64,000 nt of DNA, from positions 9,002-73,001 of the forward strand of contig QULU01000024.1 of assembly GCA_003481775.1 (NCBI GenBank). Reading direction: 5' to 3'. The notes beneath the pieces were generated by a model that was not told where the DNA came from, did not search any database, and worked only from the letters and a program-made list of their open reading frames with translations. The stretch is from Clostridiaceae bacterium OM02-2AC (GTDB lineage: Bacteria > Bacillota_I > Bacilli_A > Erysipelotrichales > Erysipelotrichaceae). The translations under genes and the position numbers were made by a program. The stretch's first letter is position 1, and each line of letters begins with the position of its first letter. This document shows, piece by piece, positions 43,549-63,809 of the stretch.

Positions 43549-43565
43549 GAATGGAGGACATGAAG

Positions 43566-44489
43566 ATGTCAAATCAACTGAATTACAGCAATGATCTATT
43601 TTTTAAGTACACCCTTTCCCGTGAGGACGAAGGCTCCGTGTACGCCCGCAACACCATTATTCAGCGTGCTACCGGAATCAGGGTTAAGGTAAGCACCGTC
43701 CTGAATCCGAATCCGGGCATCATTGGAAAGAAGCGTATCATTCTGGATGTCCATGTGAAGGATGAAATGAATCGCCATTTCAATATCGAGATGCAGACGA
43801 CCTACAAGGGAATAGCGGAAATGATGCGTTTTGAATTTTATGGAGCCAGAGCATTGAACAATCAGCTGAATAGTGGAAAGAAGTACAAGGATTTAAAGCC
43901 TGTATACCAGATTATTTTCATTGATGAGTATGCTTGGAACAACCGAAATCTGATCAATCACTACCAGATGCGCAATGAGCAGGGAGAGAATGAAAGCTAC
44001 TATCCGCTTATCCTTCGCACCTATATTCATATGCCGGCAATCAATGACATTGTAAAGGAGAAGGAGCTGCAAAGACTGAATGACTTTGAACAGCTGGTGT
44101 ACCTGTTTGAAAACAATGAAAAAAATGATATACTGAAGTCAAAGGAAAGGCTGGTGAAGGTATTCGTGGACAAGTACGAGGAAATGCAGAAGGACGATGA
44201 GCTGTGGTCGACCGCTATGGCTATTCAGATGGGAGAAGCGCGTTACCGCTATGGCTTGGAGGATAGCTTTGAAGAAGGAAAAACAGAAGGAAAAATCGAG
44301 GGAGAGAAGATTGGCATACAAAAAGGTAGGATATCGCTGTTACTCAAGCAGCTGGAAAGTAAATATCGTGAGGATTGCTCAGCCTGGCTGCAATCTTTAA
44401 GCAATGAACAAATCGAAGCCGTATCCAGCTTGATCCTGGTCTGTAATTCTTTCCAGGAGCTGAAGAATCAGATTATGATAAGGAAGTAA
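43566..44489 (+). CDS. Rpn-family nuclease (PD-(D/E)XK, transposase-like)
   Basis: About 307 residues. N-terminal LNYSNDLFFKYTLSRE, then ILDVHVKDEMNRHFNIEMQT, which supplies the D..ExQ catalytic pattern of the PD-(D/E)XK_2/Rpn family, and a C-terminal EEGKTEGKIEGEKIGIQKGR repeat typical of these proteins. Rpn proteins are DNA endonucleases that promote recA-independent recombination. Two start codons (43560, 43566) lie behind GGAGG. A solitary gene with its own terminator. Confidence 0.9.
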   Translation: MSNQLNYSNDLFFKYTLSREDEGSVYARNTIIQRATGIRVKVSTVLNPNPGIIGKKRIILDVHVKDEMNRHFNIEMQTTYKGIAEMMRFEFYGARALNNQLNSGKKYKDLKPVYQIIFIDEYAWNNRNLINHYQMRNEQGENESYYPLILRTYIHMPAINDIVKEKELQRLNDFEQLVYLFENNEKNDILKSKERLVKVFVDKYEEMQKDDELWSTAMAIQMGEARYRYGLEDSFEEGKTEGKIEGEKIGIQKGRISLLLKQLESKYREDCSAWLQSLSNEQIEAVSSLILVCNSFQELKNQIMIRK

Positions 44490-50805: not shown

Positions 50806-52353
50806 ATGATACAGGAATTGTTTGATTTTATAACACAGCGTTGGGATTTTCTATTGCCGCTTATTTATGAGCATTTGCAGATATCCGCAATCGCTATTGT
50901 CTTTGCTACCATAGTGGGTGTCAGTATCGGTATTCTCATTGCAGAAAAACGAAAGGCTTCTTCTCTGACACTTGGAATCATCAGCTTTCTGTATACGATT
51001 CCTTCTATTTCCATGCTGGGCTTTCTGATTCCGGTAACCGGGATCGGTAATACGAGCGCCATCATCGCATTGAGCATTTATGCACTGCTCCCTATCATAC
51101 GTAGCACCTATACCGGTATCACCGGTGTGGAAGAGGATATTCTGGAGGCTGCCCGCGGCATGGGAAGTACCGCTGCACAGATTCTCTGGCGCATTAAGCT
51201 TCCGCTTGCCATGCCGGTTATATTATCCGGCTTTAAAAATATGGTGGTGATGACGATTGCCCTGGCGGGTATTGCTTCCTTTATCGGTGCAGGCGGTCTG
51301 GGTGTCGCCATTTACCGCGGTATCACAACCAATAATTTAACGATGACGCTGGCAGGAAGTCTGGCAGTTGCTGTACTTGCCTTTGTCTTTGATATTCTGA
51401 TGAATATTCTGGAATCCTTTTTCACAAAACGGAAGCATTCCAGAAAACAGAAGCGCGCCGTGGCTGTTGTGCTTCTCTGCATTCTGCTTGCGGGATGCAC
51501 GACCATGCTTACGATTCCTTCTAAAAAGGATACCATTCATATCGCCACAAAACCAATGACAGAGGAATTTATCATCGGAGAAATGTTGAAGCAGCTGATT
51601 GAAGATCGAACAGACCTTTCCGTTGAAATAACCAAGGGAGTCGGCGGAGGTACAAGCAATATTCATCCGGCAATGGTTAAGGGTGATTTTGACATGTATC
51701 CGGAATATACTGGAACCTCTTGGAGCTTTGTGTTAAAGAAAAAAGAAATACCTGAACACGATATCCTGTACAAGGAGCTTGTCAGGGAATATAAGCAGCA
51801 GTATCATCTGGAATGGACAGGCTTATACGGCTTCAATAACACCTATGGTATCGCGGTCACAAAAGAAACAGCACAGCGCTATCACTTAAAGACCTATGCT
51901 GATTTGGCCAGCGTATCCAGTCGAATGTCCTTTGGCGCAGAATATGACTATTATGAACGTGATGACGGATATGATGCTATGGTCAAAGCAAATGATTTTC
52001 ATTTCAAGAAAAGCATTGATCTGGATATCGGTCTGAAATATGATGCCCTGTTGAAGAAAGAGGTGGATGCCATTCTGGTTTTCACAACCGATGGAAGAAT
52101 CAGTGATCCCGATATCGTTGTGCTGCAGGATGAAAACAATTATTTTGAGAAATATTATGCAGGAACTGTTGTTCGTGAGGAGACACTTGCCACATATCCC
52201 CAGCTGCGCAGTGTTCTGGAGCTGTTAAATGGACAGATCAGTGAAAAGGAAATGGCGGAGATGAACAATGATGTTGAAACCAAGGGCAGAAATGAGGCAG
52301 ATGTCGCAAGAGATTTCCTTGTGAAGAAGCAGCTTCTGGAGGTGACAAAATGA
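50806..52353 (+). CDS. Osmolyte ABC transporter permease fused to its binding protein (OpuF/OpuC type)
   Basis: 515 residues. The first 215 form the permease with about six helices and the EAA-type loop GVEEDILEAARGMGST. A lipobox-like segment LLAGC leads into the substrate-binding domain (residues about 235-510, TKPMTEEFIIGEMLKQL, FDMYPEYTGT), the family that binds glycine betaine, choline or carnitine. The fusion avoids a separate binding protein. The next gene, the ATPase, overlaps its stop (ATGA). Confidence 0.92.
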   Translation: MIQELFDFITQRWDFLLPLIYEHLQISAIAIVFATIVGVSIGILIAEKRKASSLTLGIISFLYTIPSISMLGFLIPVTGIGNTSAIIALSIYALLPIIRSTYTGITGVEEDILEAARGMGSTAAQILWRIKLPLAMPVILSGFKNMVVMTIALAGIASFIGAGGLGVAIYRGITTNNLTMTLAGSLAVAVLAFVFDILMNILESFFTKRKHSRKQKRAVAVVLLCILLAGCTTMLTIPSKKDTIHIATKPMTEEFIIGEMLKQLIEDRTDLSVEITKGVGGGTSNIHPAMVKGDFDMYPEYTGTSWSFVLKKKEIPEHDILYKELVREYKQQYHLEWTGLYGFNNTYGIAVTKETAQRYHLKTYADLASVSSRMSFGAEYDYYERDDGYDAMVKANDFHFKKSIDLDIGLKYDALLKKEVDAILVFTTDGRISDPDIVVLQDENNYFEKYYAGTVVREETLATYPQLRSVLELLNGQISEKEMAEMNNDVETKGRNEADVARDFLVKKQLLEVTK

Positions 52354-53078
52354 GCAGCATAAGAATGGAGCATATCGTCCACTCCTATGGAGAGCATACT
52401 GTCCTAAAGGATTTCAGTATGGATATTCACGACGGGGAGTTTATCAGTGTAATCGGTGGAAGCGGAAGCGGGAAGACAACCGTTCTGAAGCTGATCAATG
52501 GTCTTCTGATTCCGGATCAAGGTGAAATCTATGTGCAGGATAAGGATATTCGCAAGGTGGATCAGAATGAGCTGCGCCGCAATATCGGCTATGTCATTCA
52601 AAGTATCGGTCTGTTTCCGCATATGACGATTGAGGAAAACATCGGTTATGTACTATCTCTGACGAAACAGGATTCCGCTTTGATTCAGGAGCGTGTCAAG
52701 GAAATGATGGATATCATGAAGCTGGAGAAGCAGTTGCTGACCCGCTATCCTGACGAGCTGAGCGGCGGTCAGAAGCAGCGTGTCGGTATTGCCCGTGCAC
52801 TTGCTTCCCATCCGAAAATTCTGTTAATGGATGAGCCGTTTGGTGCCGTGGATGAAATTACCCGCCACTCTCTTCAGGATGAAATTCTCAGGATTTATCA
52901 TGAATTGCACATCACAATTTTCTTTATCACGCATGATATCCGTGAGGCACTGCGTCTTGGAACACGCGTCATGATTATGAAGGATGGCAACATCGAACAG
53001 TTTGATACACCGGATATTGTGAAAAAACAGCCGCAGACAGAATTTGTCCGACAGCTGTTATCCTATCTGAATGAGTAA
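52350..53078 (+). CDS. Osmolyte ABC transporter ATPase
   Basis: 242 residues. Walker A GGSGSGKTT (residues 36-44), signature LSGGQKQR, Walker B ILLMDEPFGAVDE and the switch histidine in FFITHD. It energises the Opu-type permease encoded just upstream. The C-terminal CBS pair found in OpuAA/ProV that senses ionic strength is missing, so osmotic gating must work another way. A terminator follows. Confidence 0.93.
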   Translation: MSSIRMEHIVHSYGEHTVLKDFSMDIHDGEFISVIGGSGSGKTTVLKLINGLLIPDQGEIYVQDKDIRKVDQNELRRNIGYVIQSIGLFPHMTIEENIGYVLSLTKQDSALIQERVKEMMDIMKLEKQLLTRYPDELSGGQKQRVGIARALASHPKILLMDEPFGAVDEITRHSLQDEILRIYHELHITIFFITHDIREALRLGTRVMIMKDGNIEQFDTPDIVKKQPQTEFVRQLLSYLNE

Positions 53079-53454: not shown

Positions 53455-54534
53455 TTATTTTTCGTTCAAACTGATTTTATATGTTTTGGAAAAGTCCATT
53501 CCCATAGAAATCGTTGCACTTAATTCTTTTGTATCATATACCACAGACCATTGTGTTGAGCTTAGTCTACCACTTTCTGTCTTATGCTCTTTCTGTGAAA
53601 CTGCCTTCAATAAATTCATTGCTTCCTTATTGGAAATGACTCCTTTGTTTTTCTTTAAGGTTGTCATCAACGTCTTATAGCGGTCCTGTCCCTTTCCAAA
53701 GTCATAATCTCCCGGTGTTAACAAAAAGTTTGTTGCGGCCTGATAGCTGTCCTTTGGCTCCACAAGCTTCATTTCATTGTTGATGTATTCAACCACAACG
53801 GAATCTCCACTTTTGTCAGCGATATGAAAATGATAACAGCTATTAGCACTGGAATGCATATCGTATTTTTTCAGCATTGCAACTGCTTCCTCCACCGTAG
53901 CACATTTATCCAGCATCATGCGGATTGCCGTGGTTGTCGTGATGTCCACCTTGTCTGTCTGCTGGTTGGTTTCCTCTGTTGGAATCAGTAGCACACCGAC
54001 CGTCAGACCTTTTTCGTTGATTCCGTCCAAAGGTGCATACGGCGCAGCCAGTGCTGTAATACTCTTTGTGAAGCTATCCGGCAGTTTTTTCTCACCATAG
54101 CCAAGGAAAGCCAGATTCACCATGGATATGGAAGCATAACCATCATCCGGTGTTGTTTTCACCATCATTCCCGGTGAATAGGTCAAATCAAAATTTCTTC
54201 CGAAAATACGATTTCCGTTTTCATTTTCCGCACTGAAGGTGGAGCAGCCCAGACTTGGTATATTGATTTCAATCGGCAGCCCCTTTAACAGCCGTTTTAC
54301 AACAAAATCCACCAGCTCCTTATCATTGCTTGCCCCTGTTTCAAGGAAACTGTCGAAGCCATAGTCTCCTTTATAGTCCATTTGATACAAAGGATAGTCG
54401 TTTAATTTATCAATAGAATTTATGGTCGCTACTTCATTATGGAACATGGCATACAGGCCAAGCACCAGAACAAGTAAGACAGTAATGATAGATATTCCAG
54501 TAATTTTTATAACTCTCTTTGCTTTCGTGCTCAT
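53455..54534 (-). CDS. Membrane-anchored Ntn hydrolase, choloylglycine hydrolase-like
   Basis: 359 residues. A membrane helix at residues 8-30 precedes a domain related to choloylglycine hydrolase/acid ceramidase-like amidases. The candidate nucleophile is C97 in SLGCSTFSAENENG, followed by RIFGRNFDLTY, which supplies the conserved Arg, Asn and Asp. In the family this cysteine becomes N-terminal by self-cleavage; here about 96 residues would be removed. It would act outside the cell on a linear amide such as a bile salt, N-acyl amino acid or beta-lactam. Start behind AAGGAGG. Confidence 0.85.
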   Translation of the reverse strand: MSTKAKRVIKITGISIITVLLVLVLGLYAMFHNEVATINSIDKLNDYPLYQMDYKGDYGFDSFLETGASNDKELVDFVVKRLLKGLPIEINIPSLGCSTFSAENENGNRIFGRNFDLTYSPGMMVKTTPDDGYASISMVNLAFLGYGEKKLPDSFTKSITALAAPYAPLDGINEKGLTVGVLLIPTEETNQQTDKVDITTTTAIRMMLDKCATVEEAVAMLKKYDMHSSANSCYHFHIADKSGDSVVVEYINNEMKLVEPKDSYQAATNFLLTPGDYDFGKGQDRYKTLMTTLKKNKGVISNKEAMNLLKAVSQKEHKTESGRLSSTQWSVVYDTKELSATISMGMDFSKTYKISLNEK

Positions 54535-55084
54535 ACTTCCTCCTTGTGTCTGATGACACGCAGGGAAAATATTACCACGAGATAATTTGATTGTCAAACA
54601 TATTATTTTGAAAACCAAACATTTGACGATTCTGGTATTTAAATAGACCTGTTACATTCATTGCCATACTGAAAGGAAGATTTTAACAGTTATGGATTAC
54701 AGGTCGGACATGTTGCATACCTTTCCAGGCGGTGGTGAATAGCACGGCACATGCCACTTGAAAAAGATTCGTCTAACTAGAATGATAATTATGAATCGTA
54801 CAATCGAAAGAAACTAATCTCCATTTGAAATGGTGGATTTTATTTTCTTAAACTTATAAATTTACTGACCCGATTCTGATCTTTGTTGGTTTCGTGAAGC
54901 AAAATGCCTCCAAACTGTTGTTCTAATCATTTAATTCAGTTCCTTCTAAAGCAAGCAGATTTTAATTTCATGTACCCAACCTTCACAGCATGAAGAAAGT
55001 ATATGGAAGTGCTATGCTTTTCTCTTCATTATATTTCAGCAACCTCAGGTGGCATAAAATAAAAGAAATGCACGTCTAAATTGG
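54535..55084. other. Gene-free spacer left of the mobile element
   Basis: About 550 bases without a convincing frame. Several short, stop-ridden stretches suggest decayed sequence, but no family was recognised. Confidence 0.4.
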
Positions 55085-55145: not shown

Positions 55146-55261
55146 ATGGCCTTTGGGAATAATTTGCAATATCTGAGAAAAATGCATAGAGGAATGACAC
55201 AGGAGGAACTGGCAGAAAAAATGGATGTATCCCGACAAACGATATCAAAATGGGAAATGGG
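55146..55261 (+). pseudogene. HTH regulator gene, left part (interrupted by the mobile element)
   Basis: Good ribosome site, then MAFGNNLQYLRKMHRGMTQE with the helix-turn-helix LAEKMDVSRQTISKWEMG. The frame runs into the element and stops a few codons later (VSQTKGY). The HTH family (Xre type) normally continues GxAYPEMEKLLxLCxLFxCSLDEL, and exactly that sequence resumes in the right-hand part at 63239. Joined at the shared GG the gene gives 228 codons without a break. Confidence 0.9.
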
Positions 55262-55269
55262 AGTTTCCC
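55260..55269. repeat. Left end of the element (attL core and terminal repeat)
   Basis: Crossover GG at 55260-55261, then AGTTTCCC (55262-55269), the inverted partner of GGGAAACT at the right end. Confidence 0.75.
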
Positions 55270-55296
55270 AAACAAAAGGATATTAAGAAATAACCT

Positions 55297-55314
55297 GTGT
55301 TTACCTGCTTGCAA
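55297..55314. repeat. Left-end copy of the recombinase-upstream sequence
   Basis: GTGTTTACCTGCTTGCAA, about 35 bases inside the left end. The reverse complement of 61537-61565, just upstream of the recombinase gene, matches it and flanking bases with one mismatch and a 5-base gap. Possibly a second recombinase-binding site or a duplicated end. Confidence 0.6.
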
Positions 55315-55400
55315 ATTATTGTATTTGGATAAACGAGAAAAAACTTTTTATTGACAGATATAATATCAAATATTATAATTGTTCGTAATTGAATAACTAT

Positions 55401-55507
55401 CTTCAGGGCAGGGTGTAATTCCCTACCGGTGGTATAGCCCACGAGCCGAAAGGCATGATTTGGTGAAATTCCAAAGCCGACAGTATAGTCTGGATGAAAG
55501 AAGATGA
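55401..55507 (+). ncRNA. FMN riboswitch (RFN element)
   Basis: All signature parts of the RFN element are present in order: TTCAGGGCAGGGTG, TTCCCTACCGGTGGTA, TAGCCCACGAGCCG, the AAAGCCGACAGT segment and GGATGAAAGA at the 3' end. It binds FMN and normally stops riboflavin gene expression when FMN is plentiful. It lies 139 bases before ribD, with a terminator hairpin between, and is carried inside the mobile element. Confidence 0.96.
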
Positions 55508-55531
55508 AAGTAAGTTTATGCTTTTTTTGCG

Positions 55532-55572
55532 TGCTCTGGAATGATTTTATATTGTTTCAGAGCATTTTCTTT
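55532..55572 (+). terminator. Riboswitch-controlled terminator before ribD
   Basis: Arms TGCTCTGGAA and TTTCAGAGCA around an A/T loop, then TTTTCTTT. Fits a transcription-termination expression platform for the FMN riboswitch. Confidence 0.7.
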
Positions 55573-55645
55573 AATCGCATAAATCCTCTTTTGTATGTCT
55601 TGGATAGATTTTATTCAAGGCATGTATTTTTTGGGAGGTGTAAAA

Positions 55646-56746
55646 ATGAGCGATACAGAATACATGAAATTAGCAATAAAACTGGCAAAAAAAGGTGCTG
55701 GCTATGTCAATCCTAATCCTATGGTTGGGGCAGTAATTGTAAAAGATAATCGAATTATAGGACAGGGATACCATGAAATCTTTGGTGGATTGCATGCAGA
55801 GAGAAATGCACTAAAAAATTGTAGGGAGTCACCTGTAGGAGCAACACTTTATGTAACACTTGAACCATGCTGTCACTATGGTAAGACACCACCTTGCACA
55901 GAAGCAATTATTAAAAGTGGCATTACGAGAGTAGTCGTCGGAACTTTAGACTGTAATCCTATTGTGTCTGGAAAAGGTGTAAAGGTACTTGAGGAAAACA
56001 ACATTCAAGTTGTGATAGGAATTTTAGAAATGGAGTGTCAACAGTTAATCAAAGTTTTTAGAAAATATGTTACAAGGCATATTCCTTATGTTTTTATGAA
56101 ATATGCAATGACAATGGACGGGAAAATAGCAACTTATACAAATCAATCAAAATGGATAAGTGGCGAAAAGGCGAGAAAACAAGTACATCAATTCAGGCAT
56201 AAGGTTACTGCGATCATGGTAGGAGTGAATACCGTTATTCAAGATGACCCTTTACTGACATGCCGATTAGAAAACGGGAAAAATCCTATTCGTATCGTAT
56301 GTGATACAGATTTAAGAACACCCATTACATCAAAAATTATCAAAACAGCGAATGACATTAAAACATATATCGCTACTTCTTCTATTGATGAAAGTAAGAT
56401 TGCTCTTTACAGAAAATGTGGTTGTGAAATTATTTATACGAAGAAAAAAGGTAATCATATTGACTTAATGAATTTAATGCAATGTTTAGGAAATATGCAG
56501 ATAGACAGTCTACTTTTAGAGGGTGGAAGTGCAATGAATTGGAGTGCTCTTGAGCAACAGATTGTTGATGAGGTGCAAATTTATATAGCACCTAAAATAT
56601 TTGGTGGGAGTGCAAAAAGCCCTGTAAGTGGTCAAGGTGTTGCTTTTCCTAATGACGCCATTATGCTCAAACCATATGCTTTTTCTCAAGTGGGAAATGA
56701 TTATTTCATAGAAAGCGAAGTGATTTATCCATGTTTACAGGAATAA
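55646..56746 (+). CDS. ribD: Bifunctional riboflavin deaminase/reductase RibD
   Basis: 366 residues. The N-terminal deaminase has the zinc motif HAERNA and PCCHYGKTPPC; the C-terminal reductase has FMKYAMTMDGKIAT, SGEKARKQVH and LLLEGGSAMNWS. It makes 5-amino-6-ribitylamino-uracil 5'-phosphate from the RibA product in two steps. The start is the ATG after GGGAGGTG; the longer frame runs back into the leader. Its last 16 bases overlap ribE. First gene of the cargo operon. Confidence 0.96.
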   Translation: MSDTEYMKLAIKLAKKGAGYVNPNPMVGAVIVKDNRIIGQGYHEIFGGLHAERNALKNCRESPVGATLYVTLEPCCHYGKTPPCTEAIIKSGITRVVVGTLDCNPIVSGKGVKVLEENNIQVVIGILEMECQQLIKVFRKYVTRHIPYVFMKYAMTMDGKIATYTNQSKWISGEKARKQVHQFRHKVTAIMVGVNTVIQDDPLLTCRLENGKNPIRIVCDTDLRTPITSKIIKTANDIKTYIATSSIDESKIALYRKCGCEIIYTKKKGNHIDLMNLMQCLGNMQIDSLLLEGGSAMNWSALEQQIVDEVQIYIAPKIFGGSAKSPVSGQGVAFPNDAIMLKPYAFSQVGNDYFIESEVIYPCLQE

Positions 56747-57366
56747 TAGAAGAAATCGGTAAAGTAGAAAGAATACAGAAAGATACTTGTAACTGTAAAC
56801 TATCCATTAAAGCTTCAAAAATATTAGAGGATATACATTTAGGCGACAGCATAGCAGTCAATGGTATCTGCCTTACAGTTACTTGTTTCACTCGACAATC
56901 TTTTACAGTTGATGTGATGAATGAAACATGGAACAGAACGGCTCTTAGCCTGTTAAGACATGGAAACCTTGTGAATTTAGAAAGAGCTATGCCTATGAAT
57001 GGCAGGTTGGGCGGTCACATTGTTACGGGGCATATTGATGGGACAGGTAGAATATCGTCTGTGCGTAGAGACAAAAATGCGGTGTGGTATCAAATCAATA
57101 CGCAAAGAGAAATCTTAAATCTAATTGTTGAAAAAGGTTCGATTGCTATTGACGGTATTAGTCTTACTGTCGCAAAAGTATCGAAAGCAGATTTTTCGGT
57201 ATCCGTTATCCCTCATACTTTGGAGCAAACAATTCTCAAGAATAAACAAGTCGGGGATATGGTAAACCTTGAAAATGATATATTAGGGAAATATGTGCAG
57301 AAACTCATAGACAACAGCAATGAAACAGAGTTGTCGAAAGAGTTGTTATGCCGATACGGATTTTAG
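56731..57366 (+). CDS. ribE: Riboflavin synthase, alpha subunit
   Basis: 211 residues made of two lumazine-binding repeats: [12 protein letters not shown]...[12 protein letters not shown] and, in the second half, [12 protein letters not shown]...[12 protein letters not shown]. It converts two molecules of 6,7-dimethyl-8-ribityllumazine into riboflavin and its precursor. Its start lies within the end of ribD, so the two are translationally coupled. Named RibE here; it is RibB in the older Bacillus naming. Confidence 0.96.
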
Positions 57367-57385
57367 CAGAAAGGATAAAGGAATT

Positions 57386-58591
57386 ATGAAATATCAAAAA
57401 ATAAAAGAGGCATTGCAGGCGTTACAAGAGGGAAAACTTGTTTTGGTTATGGACGATAAAGAGAGAGAAAATGAGGGGGATTTAATTTGTTCGGCACAAT
57501 TTGCGACAACAGAAAATGTTAATTTTATGGCGACTTATGCAAAAGGCTTAATCTGTATGCCTATGAGTGAAAGTCTGGCTAACAGGCTCATGCTTTCCCC
57601 TATGGTTGAAGATAATACAGATAACCATGAAACTGCCTTTACAGTTTCTATTGATTATAAGGATACTACAACAGGTATTTCTGCCGAAGAAAGAGGATTA
57701 ACGGCTCGTATGTGTGTGACTGAGAATGTAAATCCCTTTGACTTTCGTAGACCGGGGCACATGTTTCCTCTGATTGCAAAGAACGGAGGTGTTTTGGAAA
57801 GAAATGGACATACAGAAGCAACGGTTGACCTATTGAGGTTGGCTGGCTTAAAAGAATGTGGCTTATGTTGCGAAATTATGAATGAAAACGGGAAAATGAT
57901 GAGAACACCTGATTTAATTCAGTTTTCTCAAACGCACCATATACCTACCCTCACAATTAAAGAATTACAGGAATACAGAAAAGTATATGATTTGCTTGTA
58001 GAATGTGTTTCGGTTGTAGAAATGCCTACAAAATATGGGAATTTCAAAGCACATTGTTATATCAATAAATTGAATGGAGAACATCATGTTGCATTGGTTA
58101 TGGGAGATTTGAATAATGGAAACGATGTGCTATGTCGTGTCCACTCAGAGTGCTTAACAGGAGATGTCTTTGGTTCTTTACGCTGTGATTGTGGACAGCA
58201 GTTAGATAAAGCAATGAAAATGATTGCAGAAAATGGTTCTGGTGTATTGCTTTATATGCGACAAGAGGGACGAGGTATCGGGCTTGTCAATAAACTAAAA
58301 GCCTATCATTTACAGGATAACGGTATGGATACACTTGATGCCAACCTTGCATTAGGATTTCAAGGCGATTTAAGAGAATATTATATCGGTGCACAGATTT
58401 TAAGAGATTTGGGAATAAAATCATTGCATTTACTTACAAATAATCCTGATAAAGTTTATCAGTTAGAAGATTATGGAATGAAAATTTCAAGCAGAGTACC
58501 GATTGAAATAGAAGCAAATCCTTATGATAGTTTTTATCTAAAGACAAAGAAAGACCGAATGGGACACATTTTGAATATGGAGGAAAAATAA
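57386..58591 (+). CDS. ribBA: Bifunctional DHBP synthase/GTP cyclohydrolase II
   Basis: 401 residues. The N-terminal RibB part has [11 protein letters not shown] and RRPGHMFPL, making 3,4-dihydroxy-2-butanone 4-phosphate from ribulose 5-phosphate. The C-terminal RibA part has the zinc motif [16 protein letters not shown] and [10 protein letters not shown], opening GTP. Together they supply both precursors of the pathway. The start ATG follows AAAGGATAAAGGA. The frame ends immediately before the ribH start. Confidence 0.96.
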
Positions 58592-59059
58592 ATGAACACT
58601 TTTGAAGGAAATTTAGTAGCAGAAAATATAAAAATCGGTATTGTTGTAGCAAGATTTAATGAGTTTATAACTTCTAAGCTGTTAGCAGGTGCATTAGATA
58701 ATTTGAAAAGAGAAAATGTTGGTGAAAAGGACATAGAGGTAGCTTGGGTTCCGGGAGCATTTGAAATACCTTTGATAGCGTCTAAAATGGCAAAAAGTAA
58801 AAAATATGATGCGATTATTTGTTTGGGAGCAGTTATTCGAGGTAGTACAAGCCATTATGATTATGTGTGTAGTGAGGTATCAAAAGGAATTGCTCAAATC
58901 AGTTTAAATACCGAAACACCAGTTATGTTTGGTGTTCTTACGACAGATACGATTGAACAGGCGATAGAACGAGCTGGTAGCAAAGCAGGAAATAAAGGCT
59001 CTGAATGTGCACAGGGAGCTATTGAAATGGTAAATCTAATTCGTGCATTAGAGGTATAA
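58592..59059 (+). CDS. ribH: 6,7-dimethyl-8-ribityllumazine synthase
   Basis: 155 residues, full length. Conserved blocks [38 protein letters not shown] (with the catalytic histidine) and [12 protein letters not shown]. It joins the RibD-derived ribitylaminouracil with dihydroxybutanone phosphate. The order ribD-ribE-ribBA-ribH equals the chromosomal rib operon of Bacillus. Behind GGAGG; the ATG directly abuts the ribBA stop. Confidence 0.97.
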
Positions 59060-59101
59060 TATGATTGGGGATTAAAAGGTAAAGCGAAAAAGCATAATAG
59101 G

Positions 59102-59174
59102 CGGAGTGATCCAGACACGGCGGTGGGAAAATCTCTTAGATTTTTCCACCGTTTTTAGTGGCTGGTTCACTCCG
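59102..59174 (+). terminator. Nested hairpin after the rib operon
   Basis: The inner stem GGTGGGAAAATC/GATTTTTCCACC is followed by GTTTTTAG and can end transcription of the rib operon. Outer arms CGGAGTGATCCAG and CTGGTTCACTCCG enclose it, making an unusually long nested structure that may also belong to the transfer origin next to it. Confidence 0.75.
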
Positions 59175-59205
59175 GCAGTTGAGCGAGCTTGCGAGCGAAC
59201 AGTAA

Positions 59206-59229
59206 GCCCCCGTTATCTAACAGGGGGGT
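59206..59229. other. Candidate origin of transfer (oriT) of the ICEBs1/Tn916 type
   Basis: CCCCCGTTATCTAACAGGGG, then GGT: a C-run, a short spacer ending CTAACA and a G-run. This closely resembles the G+C-rich inverted repeat holding the nick site of ICEBs1 (as remembered, CTAACAGGGGGGT). It lies 200 bases upstream of the mobT gene, the expected place. Downstream, TGATATGC (59270) and GCATATCA (59351) form a further inverted repeat. Confidence 0.75.
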
Positions 59230-59430
59230 ACTATTACAAAAGACAAGAGAAAAAATAAATATAAAACTGCTGATATGCAACGATTTACAAGGTTATAAGA
59301 ACTTATTTCACTTCACACCCTATTTTTTCTACCCGACAGGTCTAAAACAGCATATCAATAGCAAATAATGATAAGATACAAGGTGTATGCTTCTATGAGT
59401 ATATGCCTTTTTTGATTGGAGGAATAAAAC

Positions 59431-60597
59431 ATGAATGATATGAAATTTATTGAAACATTAAAGCAAAAGAGAAAAGCCTGTGATTATTCGCAATCACGAC
59501 TGGCACAGGAATTGCAAATCAGCAGGCAGAACTTAAATGAAATTGAAAACGGAAAAACAAAAGCCAGTAAAGAAATGAAACATATACTTCTACATTATCT
59601 TGATTATTGTAATTGTACTCAGCCTTTCACTTTAACGATTGACTACCTGCGTGTTCGTTTTCCTACCATAGACGCATTGGAAATTATAAAAAATGTACTG
59701 GCAATGAAGAGCGAATATTTTATCCATGAAGATTACGGAATGTATGGTTATGAAGAACAGTATGTCTATGGGGATATTAGTATAAATGCTTCTAAAGATA
59801 GTTCTATGGGTGTTTTATTGGAATTAAGAGGTATGGGGTGTCGGAACTTGGAATATGTTTTACAGGCAAGAGGGATAGACTGGTATTACTTTTTAAGATG
59901 TTGTATAGATTATCAAGGTGTTTTTAAACGCATAGATTTAGCGGTCAATGATATGGGCGGACTGCTGGATATAGAAATTCTAAGGGAACGCTATTATGCC
60001 AACAAGGTATGGAAACGTTCAAGAACCCATGAAGCAGTAGACAGCGGGAAATTATCGGGTACACATGGAGATACTGCAAAAACCTTTTATATCGGTTCAA
60101 AGAATAGTTCTATTTACTTTTGCCTGTATGAAAAAGAAAAGGAACAAAAAAGCAAAGGCATAAAAACAAACATTAAGAACCGCTTTGAAATTCGTTTGAA
60201 AAATGAAAAAGCAGAACAAACGATAGAACAATTTGTTTTTACAAGAAATCCCGAACAGACCATAGCAAGCCTTATCCTCACACAGATAGATTTTCCCGAT
60301 TATATTTTATGGGATATATTTTTAGATAATGTAACGACCTCACTTCCGTTTATTATGACGCCTGTTGCTGTCAATATGGAGAAAACAAAACGCTGGTTAG
60401 AAAGACAGGTCATGCCCTCTTTATTGATGATAAAAGAGATTGAAAAGAAAACAGGAGCAAATTATCTGGAAGAAATCGACAGACATACAAGACTAACAGA
60501 AAAGCAGGAATTAAAAATTAAACAAATGACAACAGACATAGCAGATATGATTGAGAAAGATACCGCTGTTCCACAAGGGAATGACGGTATTTTTTAA
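59431..60597 (+). CDS. mobT: MobT relaxase (Rep_trans family, Tn916 Orf20/NicK type)
   Basis: 388 residues. An N-terminal HTH (about residues 8-58, YSQSRLAQELQISRQNLNEI) is joined to a Rep_trans domain (from about residue 68, TIDYLRVRFPT), with a middle block FKRIDLAVNDMGG. This matches the HTH-plus-replication-initiator relaxases of Tn916 (Orf20) and ICEBs1 (NicK), which nick at oriT and start transfer and rolling-circle copying. The start is behind TTGGAGGA. It is the only transfer gene in the element, fitting a mobilizable rather than self-transmissible element. Confidence 0.9.
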   Translation: MNDMKFIETLKQKRKACDYSQSRLAQELQISRQNLNEIENGKTKASKEMKHILLHYLDYCNCTQPFTLTIDYLRVRFPTIDALEIIKNVLAMKSEYFIHEDYGMYGYEEQYVYGDISINASKDSSMGVLLELRGMGCRNLEYVLQARGIDWYYFLRCCIDYQGVFKRIDLAVNDMGGLLDIEILRERYYANKVWKRSRTHEAVDSGKLSGTHGDTAKTFYIGSKNSSIYFCLYEKEKEQKSKGIKTNIKNRFEIRLKNEKAEQTIEQFVFTRNPEQTIASLILTQIDFPDYILWDIFLDNVTTSLPFIMTPVAVNMEKTKRWLERQVMPSLLMIKEIEKKTGANYLEEIDRHTRLTEKQELKIKQMTTDIADMIEKDTAVPQGNDGIF

Positions 60598-60640
60598 TTT
60601 CTTCAAAAAATCTGCAACAAAACGGTTACTTGCGTACAGA

Positions 60641-60985
60641 TATGGTGCAAGGAAAGGAAATCTGACTTTTTTTGAAAACAGGTCATTAAATCGGTGGTTG
60701 CTGTCCCTATATGATGTGAAAGAAGAAACGATTTTCAATTTCAACTTAACAATCCGTAGTTTCCATTCCCTATATGGAGCAAAGAAAATCTTTCATTCCA
60801 TAGTTGGTAGTAATAGTGTTGCATGGGTAGTTAGGGTGTGAAAAGAAAATCAGATTTTTTCATCACCAACTTAGCAGAATGACACTTTCTTTCCCTATAT
60901 GGTGCAGGAAAAGAGAAAAGTTTTGAAGATTGGTTACGCTTCTGCTCTTTTCCAACGCGGTATATAGGAAAGACGATTTTCTTCT
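60641..60985. repeat. Phased array of about 64-bp imperfect repeats
   Basis: Starts at about 60641, 60710, 60773, 60832, 60898 and 60962. Each unit opens with a TATATGGTGCAA-like box (often preceded by TCCC), then an A-rich run and an ATTTTC-type half-hairpin. The spacing (59-69 bases) is near six helical turns. No protein is convincingly encoded in 60598-61231. Possible iterons, relaxase/replication sites or regulatory elements. Confidence 0.6.
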
Positions 60986-61231
60986 TTCGTGTTCTTTGAC
61001 AACTGAATAAAGCAATTTAATACGTTTGACAGACAGCGAGCCGTTGAAACAGATACGCCATGACCTTTTCCCTGCTAAAGTGAGCGAGCCTTATCTGTGT
61101 TCCTGTAAGAAACTTGTCCTTTCCTACCGCCATGACCTGTTCTGTCTGATAATGATACTCCCGTACAGCCACAGCTTGAGCGTTCAGAGCGTCGCACGCA
61201 ATGGGTACGGCTACATAAGAACTATGCAGAG

Positions 61232-61477
61232 GTGGAACTCCTGTGGGCTATGACAAAAGCCGTTGAATTGCTTAGAAAAGATTTTTACAGAAAGGGGGTA
61301 TGTGCTATTGCTGATATTGTAAAAACAAGGCAGGAAAAGACAGATAATAAGCGTGGCATTGGCAACAGAGGAAAAACAAAGATTGTTGTAAAAGAGCATT
61401 TTTCCGAAAAGGGAAAGACAATGGAAGAACTTCTGACGGATGTTATGCTGGAAAAAGCAAAGCAGACAATCGCATAA
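61232..61477 (+). CDS. Small frame upstream of the recombinase
   Basis: 81 residues from a GTG, no convincing ribosome site. The C-terminal part NRGKTKIVVKEHFSEKGKTM is followed by EELLTDVMLEKAKQTIA and looks protein-like; the N-terminal part AEVELLWAMTKAVELLRKDF does too, but continues upstream without a start, so this may be the fused remains of two genes. No family recognised. The space from the repeat array to here shows two copies of CGCCATGACCT (about 61060 and 61130) and nothing else. Confidence 0.4.
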   Translation: MELLWAMTKAVELLRKDFYRKGVCAIADIVKTRQEKTDNKRGIGNRGKTKIVVKEHFSEKGKTMEELLTDVMLEKAKQTIA

Positions 61478-61518
61478 AATCGGTGCAGTTGTAAGAAATA
61501 GATTGAATGACAAAAAGT

Positions 61519-61565
61519 ACCCGTGTTATACTTTACTTGCAAGCAGGTATTGTAAACACGGGTTA
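61519..61565 (+). promoter_or_regulatory. Dyad in front of the recombinase gene
   Basis: ACCCGTGTT (61519-61527) and AACACGGGT (61555-61563) are perfect inverted repeats 27 bases apart. The right half overlaps the sequence repeated near the left end of the element (55297). It lies just before the ribosome site AAAGGAGG and could regulate the recombinase or bind it. Confidence 0.6.
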
Positions 61566-61588
61566 GTTATAAAGGAGGATAACTGACA

Positions 61589-63202
61589 ATGAAACAACAG
61601 ATTTACAATACTGCACTTTATCTTAGGTTAAGCCGAGATGATGAATTACAGGGCGAAAGTTCCAGCATTACCACACAAAGAAGTATGTTGCGTCTATATG
61701 CAAAAGAACATCATTTGAATGTGATTGATGAGTATATTGATGACGGCTGGTCGGGAACAAATTTTGAAAGACCGAGTTTCCAGAGAATGATTGAAGATAT
61801 AGAGGCAGGAAAAATCAACTGTGTTGTAACGAAAGACCTTTCCCGACTTGGCAGAAATTATATTATGACAGGACAATATACAGAATTGTATTTTCCCAGC
61901 CATAATGTCCGTTACATAGCGATTGACGACGGTGTAGACAGCGAAAAAGGCGAAAGTGAGATTGCACCATTTAAGAATATCATCAATGAATGGGTGGCAA
62001 GAGATACAAGCCGTAAAGTGAAATCTGCATTTAAGACAAAATTTGCAGAGGGTGCATATTATGGGGCTTATGCTCCGTTAGGATATAAGAAACACCCCGA
62101 CATCAAAGGAAAACTGCTGGTTGATGAGGAAACAAAATGGATTGTTGAAAAAATCTTCTCCCTAGCCTATCAAGGTTATGGTAGTGCCAAAATCACAAAG
62201 GTACTGCGAGAAGAAAAAGTTCCAACAGCGTCTTGGCTGAATTTTACAAGGTACGGTACTTTTGCACATATCTTTGAGGGAAAGCCCGACAGCAAGCGTT
62301 ATGAGTGGACGATTGCTCATGTCAAGGCAATCTTAAAAAATGAAGTCTATATCGGAAACAGCGTTCATAATCGACAATCAACAGTTTCATTCAAGAGCAA
62401 GAAGAAAGTGCGTAAGCCTGAAAGTGAATGGTTTCGAGTAGAAAATACCCATGAGCCGATTATTGATAAGGAAGTGTTTTATCGTGTGCAGGAACAGATA
62501 AAATCAAGGCGTAGACAGACAAAGGAAAAAGCAACGCCGATATTTGCAGGGCTTGTCAAGTGTGCGGATTGTGGCTGGTCTATGCGGTTTGCGACAAATA
62601 AGGCAAATAAAACGCCATACAGTTATTATGCTTGCAGTTACTACGGGCAGTTTGGAAAAGGTACTTGCTCTATGCACTATATCCGTTATGATGTGTTGTA
62701 TCAAGCCGTATTGGAACGATTGCAGTATTGGACTAAGGCAGTACAGCAGGACGAAGAAAAGGTGTTGAATAAGATACAAAAGGCTGGCAATGCAGAGCGA
62801 ATACGGGCAAAGAAGAAAAAGGCAAGTGCTTTGAAGAAAGCCGAGAGCCGACAAAATGAGATTGACCGCTTGTTTGCGAAAATGTATGAAGATAGAGCCT
62901 GTGAGAAGATAACGGAACGAAACTTCATCATGCTGTCGGGGAAATATCAAAAAGAACAGATAGAACTGGAACAGCAGATAACCAACCTAAGAGAAGAATT
63001 AAGTAAAATGGAACAGGATATGATAGGTGCTGAAAAGTGGATTGAGTTAATCAAGGAGTATTCCGTACCAAAGGAACTGACAGCACCGTTATTAAATGCA
63101 ATGATAGAAAAAATCCTTATTCACGAAGCAACAACGAATGAGGACAATGAAAGAATACAGGAAATAGAGATATATTACCGATTTATTGGAAAAGTAGACT
63201 GA
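61589..63202 (+). CDS. Large serine recombinase (integrase)
   Basis: 537 residues. N-terminal resolvase domain with the nucleophile S15 in ALYLRLSRDDE and the arginine region TKDLSRLGRN; then a recombinase domain with APLGYKKHP, a zinc ribbon (CADCGW, then YACSYY and GTCSMHYIRYD) and a coiled coil (about residues 395-480). This is the layout of TndX/TnpX-type integrases, which cut at a two-base core. It sits at the right end, its stop 34 bases from the crossover GG. Start behind AAAGGAGG. Confidence 0.96.
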   Translation: MKQQIYNTALYLRLSRDDELQGESSSITTQRSMLRLYAKEHHLNVIDEYIDDGWSGTNFERPSFQRMIEDIEAGKINCVVTKDLSRLGRNYIMTGQYTELYFPSHNVRYIAIDDGVDSEKGESEIAPFKNIINEWVARDTSRKVKSAFKTKFAEGAYYGAYAPLGYKKHPDIKGKLLVDEETKWIVEKIFSLAYQGYGSAKITKVLREEKVPTASWLNFTRYGTFAHIFEGKPDSKRYEWTIAHVKAILKNEVYIGNSVHNRQSTVSFKSKKKVRKPESEWFRVENTHEPIIDKEVFYRVQEQIKSRRRQTKEKATPIFAGLVKCADCGWSMRFATNKANKTPYSYYACSYYGQFGKGTCSMHYIRYDVLYQAVLERLQYWTKAVQQDEEKVLNKIQKAGNAERIRAKKKKASALKKAESRQNEIDRLFAKMYEDRACEKITERNFIMLSGKYQKEQIELEQQITNLREELSKMEQDMIGAEKWIELIKEYSVPKELTAPLLNAMIEKILIHEATTNEDNERIQEIEIYYRFIGKVD

Positions 63203-63228
63203 TAATGAGGGTTCATATCTTTAACTAA

Positions 63229-63238
63229 GGGAAACTGG
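63229..63238. repeat. Right end of the element (attR core and terminal repeat)
   Basis: GGGAAACT (63229-63236), inverted partner of the left-end AGTTTCCC, then crossover GG (63237-63238), after which the host gene resumes. Confidence 0.75.
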
Positions 63239-63809
63239 GAGCGCTTATCCGGAAATGGAAAAAGCACTCTTATTGTGTAAGCTTTTTGCCTGTTCTCTGG
63301 ATGAACTCATGCGCAAAAATATGCAACAGGAGGATGCAGCCTACCAGAATATGCATATCGAAGAAATACCCGCATTCCATTATATAAGATATGTGGTTAT
63401 CAGCTGTGATCCGGAAGGCGATGCATTGCATCACATACGGGAATGGGCTGCAATGAACGGCATTGTAGAGCCAAACATTATCGGGTGGGATTTTCCGATT
63501 CTCTCACAGGAACAAATCAATGTTTATCATATGCACGGCTATTCCGCAGCATGCATACTTCCTGAAGGCTACGATTTCACCTGTACAGAGATACAGCAGC
63601 AGAAGGCTCAGAAATATGCTGTATTAACGATTACCGATCCATTTAATCAGCCCTTTGTCAGTATTCCAAATGCATTCAAAACACTTCTTCGTTACATAGA
63701 GGTAAACAATCTGACACATAACATGACGAAGGATATTATTGATAACTTTGAACGTGTATATGAAAAAGACGGTATGACATTCATGGATATTCATATCGCT
63801 ATAGAATAG
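63239..63809 (+). pseudogene. HTH regulator gene, right part (with effector-binding-like domain)
   Basis: Continues the gene begun at 55146: after GG the frame reads SAYPEMEKALLLCKLFACSL, then DEL, the standard end of an Xre-type HTH. The following 150 residues (HIEEIPAFHYIRYVVISCDP, IGWDFPILSQEQIN, INVYHMHGYSAACILPEGYD) resemble a GyrI/AraC effector-binding fold. It cannot be expressed as the full protein while the element is inserted; an internal ATG at 63255 could only give a truncated form. Excision would restore it. Confidence 0.88.

Follow-up and report, generated by a model that had tools for sequence, protein, structure and literature searches.

The window analysed here is a stretch of 64,000 nucleotides from Clostridiaceae bacterium OM02-2AC (contig QULU01000024.1, positions 9,002 to 73,001 of the forward strand). 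Between the two fragments of a gene for an XRE-type regulator it holds, at positions 55260-63236 (7,977 bp; all positions are those of the window), four riboflavin genes behind a riboswitch, a gene for a MobT-like relaxase, a site resembling an origin of transfer (oriT) and a gene for a large serine recombinase, all in one orientation (Table 1). This segment is very probably an integrative mobilizable element (IME) that carries a complete riboflavin operon as cargo, with its own switch for flavin mononucleotide (FMN), and that would depend on a conjugative helper of the Tn916/ICEBs1 type.

The riboflavin operon and the mobility genes

The products of all four rib genes scored above the curated NCBIfam cut-offs, with 355.7 bits for RibD (cut-off 156.35), 254.1 for RibE (156.6), 584.4 for RibBA (569) and 192.7 for RibH (84.6). 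They follow an FMN riboswitch and a promoter that is the only complete consensus match among the 33 promoter-like sites of the region (mean of 25.6 in shuffled sequences), and the terminator between riboswitch and ribD is likely to be the expression platform of the switch. Judged by these matches, RibD, RibE, RibBA and RibH are encoded by a complete FMN-regulated operon, as a preliminary description made from the letters of the DNA had stated. Third-position GC content is 0.21-0.33 in the rib genes, 0.31 in mobT and 0.39 in the recombinase gene versus 0.40-0.53 in a host set of six open reading frames (ORFs), one of them the fragment of the target gene. Among the best 80 of 520 relatives in genome contigs, the closest RibD proteins belong to Lachnotalea glycerini (62% identity) and Lacrimispora amygdalina (58%). 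Since the GC values are low and the relatives of this kind, a foreign origin of the rib genes fits the data, perhaps from Lachnospiraceae-like bacteria. In two other RibD relatives, P0006 and P0008, the RibD sequence breaks off at one common residue and gives way to a PF00482 (type II secretion F-like) domain; the tails of the two differ slightly and may stem from chimeric assembly or from a genuine insertion.

Apart from mobT, the recombinase gene and the rib genes, the element has no ORF of more than 150 residues, and all six of these are assigned. On this inventory the element is devoid of conjugative transfer machinery, and a Tn916/ICEBs1-type element is therefore its likely helper for transfer. 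The relaxase exceeds the Pfam cut-offs for Rep_trans and Rol_Rep_N and has the domain composition of MobT; by sequence likeness, the element has an oriT and a relaxase of its own, as an IME should. The recombinase has the Resolvase, Recombinase and zinc-ribbon domains and the catalytic domain expected of the TnpX type. Its best solved-structure match is the catalytic domain of TnpX (2mhc, E 6.5e-35), and the serine of its YLRLSRDDE motif is aligned with that of YERLSRDDD in TnpX, which we take to be the catalytic residue.

Upstream of the recombinase gene lies a small ORF whose product is 84% identical (residues 18-81) to that of one sister element described below, L099, and 88% to that of the other, L106; Pfam and NCBIfam searches with it gave no match. 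A pemK RNA motif (RF02913, 61149-61246, + strand, 55.1 bits) overlaps the start of this ORF and is found at the same place in L099 (10237-10334, 55.1 bits) and L106 (6853-6953, 49.9 bits); it is perhaps a control element of excision. At the left end, positions 55281-55312 (CCTGTGTTTACCTGCTTGC) resemble the reverse complement of 61531-61580, just 5' of the recombinase gene, and the two may be copies of a putative shared binding site.

Table 1. Positions of the element's features in the window. L099 and L106 are sister elements, P0012 is a cluster of RibD proteins, and P0121 and P0123 are relatives of the target regulator (see text).
Feature	Position	Strand	Evidence or remark
5' fragment of host gene, XRE helix-turn-helix (HTH) regulator	55146-55259	+	sequence; joined frame 228 aa
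attL crossover dinucleotide GG	55260-55261		predicts WEMGSAYP residues seen in P0121
Conserved left end, attP arm AGTTTCCC onward	55260-55314	+	98% over 55 bp to L106; 88% over 66 bp (55250-55315) to L099
Sigma-70 consensus promoter TTGACA-17-TATAAT	55351-55379	+	12/12 match, inside element, 5' of riboswitch
FMN riboswitch (RF00050)	55395-55509	+	118.7 bits; gathering score 66.2
Intrinsic terminator	55531-55565	+	fold z-score -4.69 for 55525-55585
ribD, 366 aa from ATG after GGGAGG	55646-56746	+	start in ORF list 55595; P0012 starts at same Met
ribE, riboflavin synthase	56731-57366	+	domain and NCBIfam matches
ribBA	57386-58591	+	likely start; ORF opens at 57320
ribH, lumazine synthase	58592-59059	+	domain and NCBIfam matches
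Strong hairpin then T run 3' of ribH, probable operon terminator	59119-59152 (approximate)	+	fold 59050-59165, z-score -3.03
oriT-like site GCCCCCGTTATCTAACAGGGGGGT	59206-59229	+	likeness to Tn916 oriT; similar site in L099 and L106
MobT-like relaxase / rolling-circle initiator with N-terminal HTH	59431-60597	+	Rep_trans 148.3 bits, Rol_Rep_N 110.8 bits
Small conserved ORF, 81 aa, 5' of recombinase	61232-61477	+	conserved in L099 and L106
Large serine recombinase, 537 aa, TnpX-like catalytic domain	61589-63202	+	Resolvase, Recombinase, Zn-ribbon and DUF4368 domains
attR arm GGGAAACT and crossover GG (63237-63238)	63229-63238		homology ends at 63238 (L099) and 63234 (L106)
3' fragment of XRE regulator	63237-63809	+	remaining ORF 63255-63809; 184-aa fragment form P0123

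Insertion site and cargo slot

A crossover at the dinucleotide GG (55260-55261 and 63237-63238) agrees with the element ends at 55260 and 63236 given in the preliminary description. Under this model the circular form would carry the attachment site GGGAAACT-GG-AGTTTCCC, an inverted repeat around GG (attP sequence GGGAAACTGGAGTTTCCC), and the empty site is predicted to read TGGGAAATGGGGAGCGCTTATCC (empty-site sequence TGGGAAATGGGGAGCGC). When the flanks were joined in silico at GG, an uninterrupted XRE regulator of 228 residues containing WEMGSAYPEMEK was obtained. The joined regulator, in a first version of the junction, was searched against 5.8 billion proteins and gave 2045 matches; the best among the top 120 of these 2045, P0121, is an intact homologue that is 94% identical along its whole length (41 members, 2 contigs) and has WEMGSAYPEMEK at the predicted junction. 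The flanks thus join in silico as an intact gene, and an intact homologue is present in other assemblies, in line with the preliminary description. In P0122 (86%) the stretch GKWGALIRKWKKH equals the predicted empty-site DNA in another reading frame. A crossover within the 6-bp repeat GGGAAA was considered and dropped; it predicts WETG where P0121 has WEMG, as obtained from GG at 55260/63237.

A further match, P0123, is the 184-residue fragment form of the regulator (99% identity, 11 members, 28 contigs). An in-frame stop in attR precedes the start of this fragment, which makes it likely that its contigs are sites occupied by the same or a related element. Searching contigs for the end patterns of the element gave no left end and a right end in 2 contigs, and the C-terminal part of the regulator found no match (0/5) in the five genomes of the class of G406, a relative described below.

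The same recombinase was found in two other elements, L099 on an Enterococcus faecium plasmid (96% protein identity) and L106 in the Clostridia-class genome G826 (95%), at about 91% identity in DNA. Both have the same ends as the element in the window, where the integrase gene, its ORF intact, lies between attL and attR as in an IME. Upon joining the flanks of L106 at GG, the longest frame across the join has 257 open codons and belongs to a gene unlike the target in the window. Since the two target genes differ and both fit GG, the recombinase seems to have low site specificity and to need little beyond GG. More distant recombinases (62-66%) at L003 and L011/L111 in IMG/VR have, read by eye, a similar right-end motif by XRE-regulator-like sequence, and this type of target may recur.

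DNA comparison of the element with L106 and L099 at E 1e-3 gave homology at the left end, in the oriT region (59180-59257 in one sister and 59102-59228 in the other), in parts of mobT and in a recombinase module that runs from 60558 of the window to 63234 (against L106) or 63238 (against L099), at about 91% from 60916 or 60741 on. Across 55316-59101, which holds the rib operon with its promoter and switch, neither sister gave a match at this threshold. The corresponding segment of L106 carries a small resolvase and a surface-like protein of 968 residues, and that of L099 carries genes annotated as dfrF and others. L106 also has a MobT relative (38%) and the small ORF between the shared ends. 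As the sisters share both ends, oriT and recombinase but give no match in 55316-59101, the backbone is by this comparison shared and the cargo exchanged, and the rib operon, in line with its preliminary description as cargo, fills an exchangeable slot.

Related genomes, further copies and alternative readings

Riboflavin genes were sought in six comparison genomes, namely G406, four further genomes of the same class and G826, the Clostridia genome that carries L106. G406 is the nearest genome found, with 67% identity in GpmI; it is the one genome of 299 in its phylum at E 1e-115, and the only one close by GpmI (at E 1e-160 it alone matched among the five genomes that make up its family, order and class alike). 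In the class of G001, GpmI matched 365 of 398 genomes, with at most 44% identity among the matches listed. RibH and RibB were each found in none of the six, whose completeness is not stated, versus 14 of 14 control genomes. An FMN riboswitch scored above the cut-off in all six (7 of the 14 controls); G552 has a further site, and G452 has another below the threshold. In each of the six the best site is followed by an ORF of 180-195 residues that scores high enough for both ECF_trnsprt and the riboflavin-specific ECF family to pass their cut-offs; the one of these compared with structures matches RibU. Given the riboswitch and a RibU-like ORF in 6/6 and RibB and RibH in 0/6, the comparison genomes look like riboflavin importers without the tested steps of biosynthesis. 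At these loci (L122-L127, in G552, G452, G406, G490, G826 and G523) the RibU-like gene is followed in five of six, not in L126, by an ORF that is presumably whiA-like, so that the gene neighbourhood is conserved.

Several results weigh against our interpretation of the segment. The preliminary description had suggested looking for the same recombinase next to rib genes in other species, and a second rib-bearing copy with known context did not turn up in any of the following searches. RibD identity peaks at 63% in 391 Clostridia-class genomes (8/391 at E 1e-140) and at the above 62% among the best 80 of 520 relatives in genome contigs. The 89 RibD loci, which differ in flank length and include one place twice (L013 and L113), encode the element's MobT in no case within the available flanks and have only weak recombinase matches (23-25%) in two. 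The recombinase itself occurs at the closeness of L106 in one of the 391 Clostridia-class genomes (5/391 at E 1e-150 or better) and, at E 1e-170, in 0/398 genomes of the phylum of G001. A MobT relative stands by the recombinase in L099 and L106 only, in none of 12 IMG/VR loci (several of them short) and in none of four genomes with recombinases of 55-59% identity. Finally, the recombinase frame of L106 has two stops and its mobT is split into two ORFs; this copy may be inactive, so that probably not every copy is active. Scanning IMG/VR for MobT, or for RibD with the single protein, gave no match. One IMG/VR locus recovered with an alignment query (L121, 56% RibD) was rejected, having phage-like and other recombinase ORFs and no match to the element's recombinase or MobT. 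RibD relatives at 82-100% identity do exist as large protein clusters, such as P0001 (100%; 1125 members, longest contig 4.9 kb) and P0012 (3322 members, longest contig 90 kb), in a search that scored the 7998 candidates sharing most words and gives clusters without genomic context.

The absence of the element's MobT from all 89 RibD loci would also be expected if the rib genes were an ordinary chromosomal operon beside a chance element, and in Bacillota it is common for an FMN riboswitch to precede a rib operon. Yet the operon lies inside both ends, in the exact segment where two sisters carry something else; removal of element and operon together restores a gene; and the six comparison genomes are without RibB and RibH. 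We regard this explanation as already contradicted and hardly credible.

The damaged copy in L106 raises another alternative, in which the element brought the operon but can no longer excise, the rib genes being fixed in the strain or species. The fragment allele in 28 contigs is in accordance with it, so that occupied sites may be long-lived. As far as can be read from the letters, however, recombinase, mobT, oriT and both ends are intact in the window, and P0121 represents an uninterrupted allele of the target gene. Such a stranded relic is in our view improbable, and an IME remains the interpretation that we prefer.

The relaxase gives rise to a third alternative. Its sole solved-structure match is PDB 4cij 'GST REP' (E 2.6e-14), and the NCBIfam MobT equivalog NF041493 gave it 311.5 bits, below the cut-off of 600, for which reason we call it MobT-like and not a MobT equivalog. 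In this respect the preliminary description, which had named MobT alongside oriT, serine recombinase and element ends, is tempered, while its other parts hold. The segment could then be an integrated rolling-circle replicon, in which the Rep_trans protein starts replication of the excised circle at the oriT-like site as replication origin, and which would spread from site to site, or with phages or through transformation, instead of by conjugation; excerpts of PMC5357655 and PMC5704250 describe the MobT proteins of ICEBs1 and Tn916 as initiators of replication as well. Against this stands the oriT core of the element (GCCCCCGTTATCTAACAGGGGGGT), which is little different from that of Tn916 as printed in one part of PMC4740735 (ACCCCCCGTATCTAACAGGGGGGT) and close to that of ICEBs1 in an extract of PMC10233336 (ACCCCCCCACGCTAACAGGGGGGT), a similar site being kept in L099 and L106. 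We judge a replicon of this kind unlikely and return to the IME below.

The surroundings of the element were also inspected. At 53455-54618 a protein of the choloylglycine-hydrolase/acyltransferase family, a candidate bile-acid or amide hydrolase by sequence, adjoins a betaine/choline-type ABC transporter (50806-53078), and a PD-(D/E)XK nuclease family transposase-type protein (PF12784) is encoded at 43551-44489. Plasmid records gave no match to host DNA at 30000-54600. For a transporter of the host, the named matches are distant ones, from Candidatus Stoquefichus (71%) and Longicatena (61%).

Proposed transfer, known systems and possible meaning for riboflavin supply

An IME of this composition would spread as follows. 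Through attP, the serine recombinase would insert the circular form into the chromosome at a site centred on GG, in this case within the XRE regulator gene. Once the element is excised, its Tn916-like oriT would be nicked by the MobT-like protein, and the strand would pass into another cell by means of a conjugative helper of the Tn916/ICEBs1 type. In the recipient the operon would be transcribed from the promoter it brings along and repressed by FMN via its own riboswitch, and an importer of riboflavin would become a producer. The preliminary description had likewise pictured a riboflavin-dependent strain turned into a producer; the six relatives with an importer and without RibB and RibH fit such a recipient, and the benefit to it is one that we infer, as we do excision, mobilization by the helper and regulation by FMN (from the riboswitch family).

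The kind of element is known. IMEs of the Tn4451/TnpX type in Clostridia share with it a large serine recombinase, and short direct repeats occur at the ends of serine-recombinase IMEs (PMC5704250, in part). The element in the window differs from the former in its GG crossover, its Rep_trans/MobT-like relaxase and a vitamin cargo instead of catP. Tn4451 ends carry a GA dinucleotide, whereas GG fits the window and L106. The MobT IMEs of streptococci (e.g. IME_oriTs) resemble it in having their own Rep_trans-family relaxase, no transfer machinery and diverse cargo (parts of PMC7563843 and PMC5357655). The survey table of PMC5357655 lists MobT with tyrosine integrases and 16 serine-integrase IMEs with other relaxases, so the pairing of a MobT-like protein with a serine recombinase falls outside that one table. 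Tn916 and ICEBs1 have nearly the same oriT core; unlike them, the element has neither a coupling protein nor secretion genes.

Vitamin genes on mobile DNA have precedents elsewhere. ICESym-type elements of Mesorhizobium confer vitamin prototrophy on auxotrophs through nad and bio genes (PMC9973854, excerpt) but are conjugative, belong to Alphaproteobacteria and carry other vitamins. In human gut metagenomes, riboflavin biosynthesis appears among the mobile cargo of the plasmid system PS486; the backbone of this system is that of a plasmid and includes a replication protein and toxin-antitoxin, and integration goes unmentioned in the available portion of the source (PMC10914615). The cargo section of an IME review names resistance, restriction-modification, toxin-antitoxin, bacteriocin-like, metal resistance, protease, regulator and transport genes, and the word 'vitamin' does not occur in its main text (PMC5704250). 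Riboflavin was likewise unreported with mobilizable elements, serine recombinases or cargo in the open-access literature searched. What would be new, judged from the genes found, is the cargo and, relative to the one survey table, the relaxase-recombinase pairing; the earlier claim that a vitamin pathway is unusual cargo holds, in the literature searched, for this kind of element, not for mobile elements at large.

Our impression is that, for gut bacteria, being auxotrophic for a vitamin is mostly regarded as a stable property of the species. MAIT (mucosal-associated invariant T)-cell ligands form from riboflavin-pathway intermediates. Slightly short of an even chance, in our estimate, is the wider proposal that riboflavin prototrophy is an exchangeable cassette circulating in gut Bacillota, in which a serine-recombinase/MobT element of low specificity hijacks Tn916-type helpers, turns scavengers into producers in one step and may switch on the intermediates of these ligands. 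If it were true, an 8-kb pathway element with an FMN switch would let strains gain or lose vitamin auxotrophy and change cross-feeding, and the set of bacteria able to make riboflavin-pathway MAIT-cell ligands would change. The same site with and without the element would offer a clean natural experiment in a lineage whose tested relatives appear only to import the vitamin.

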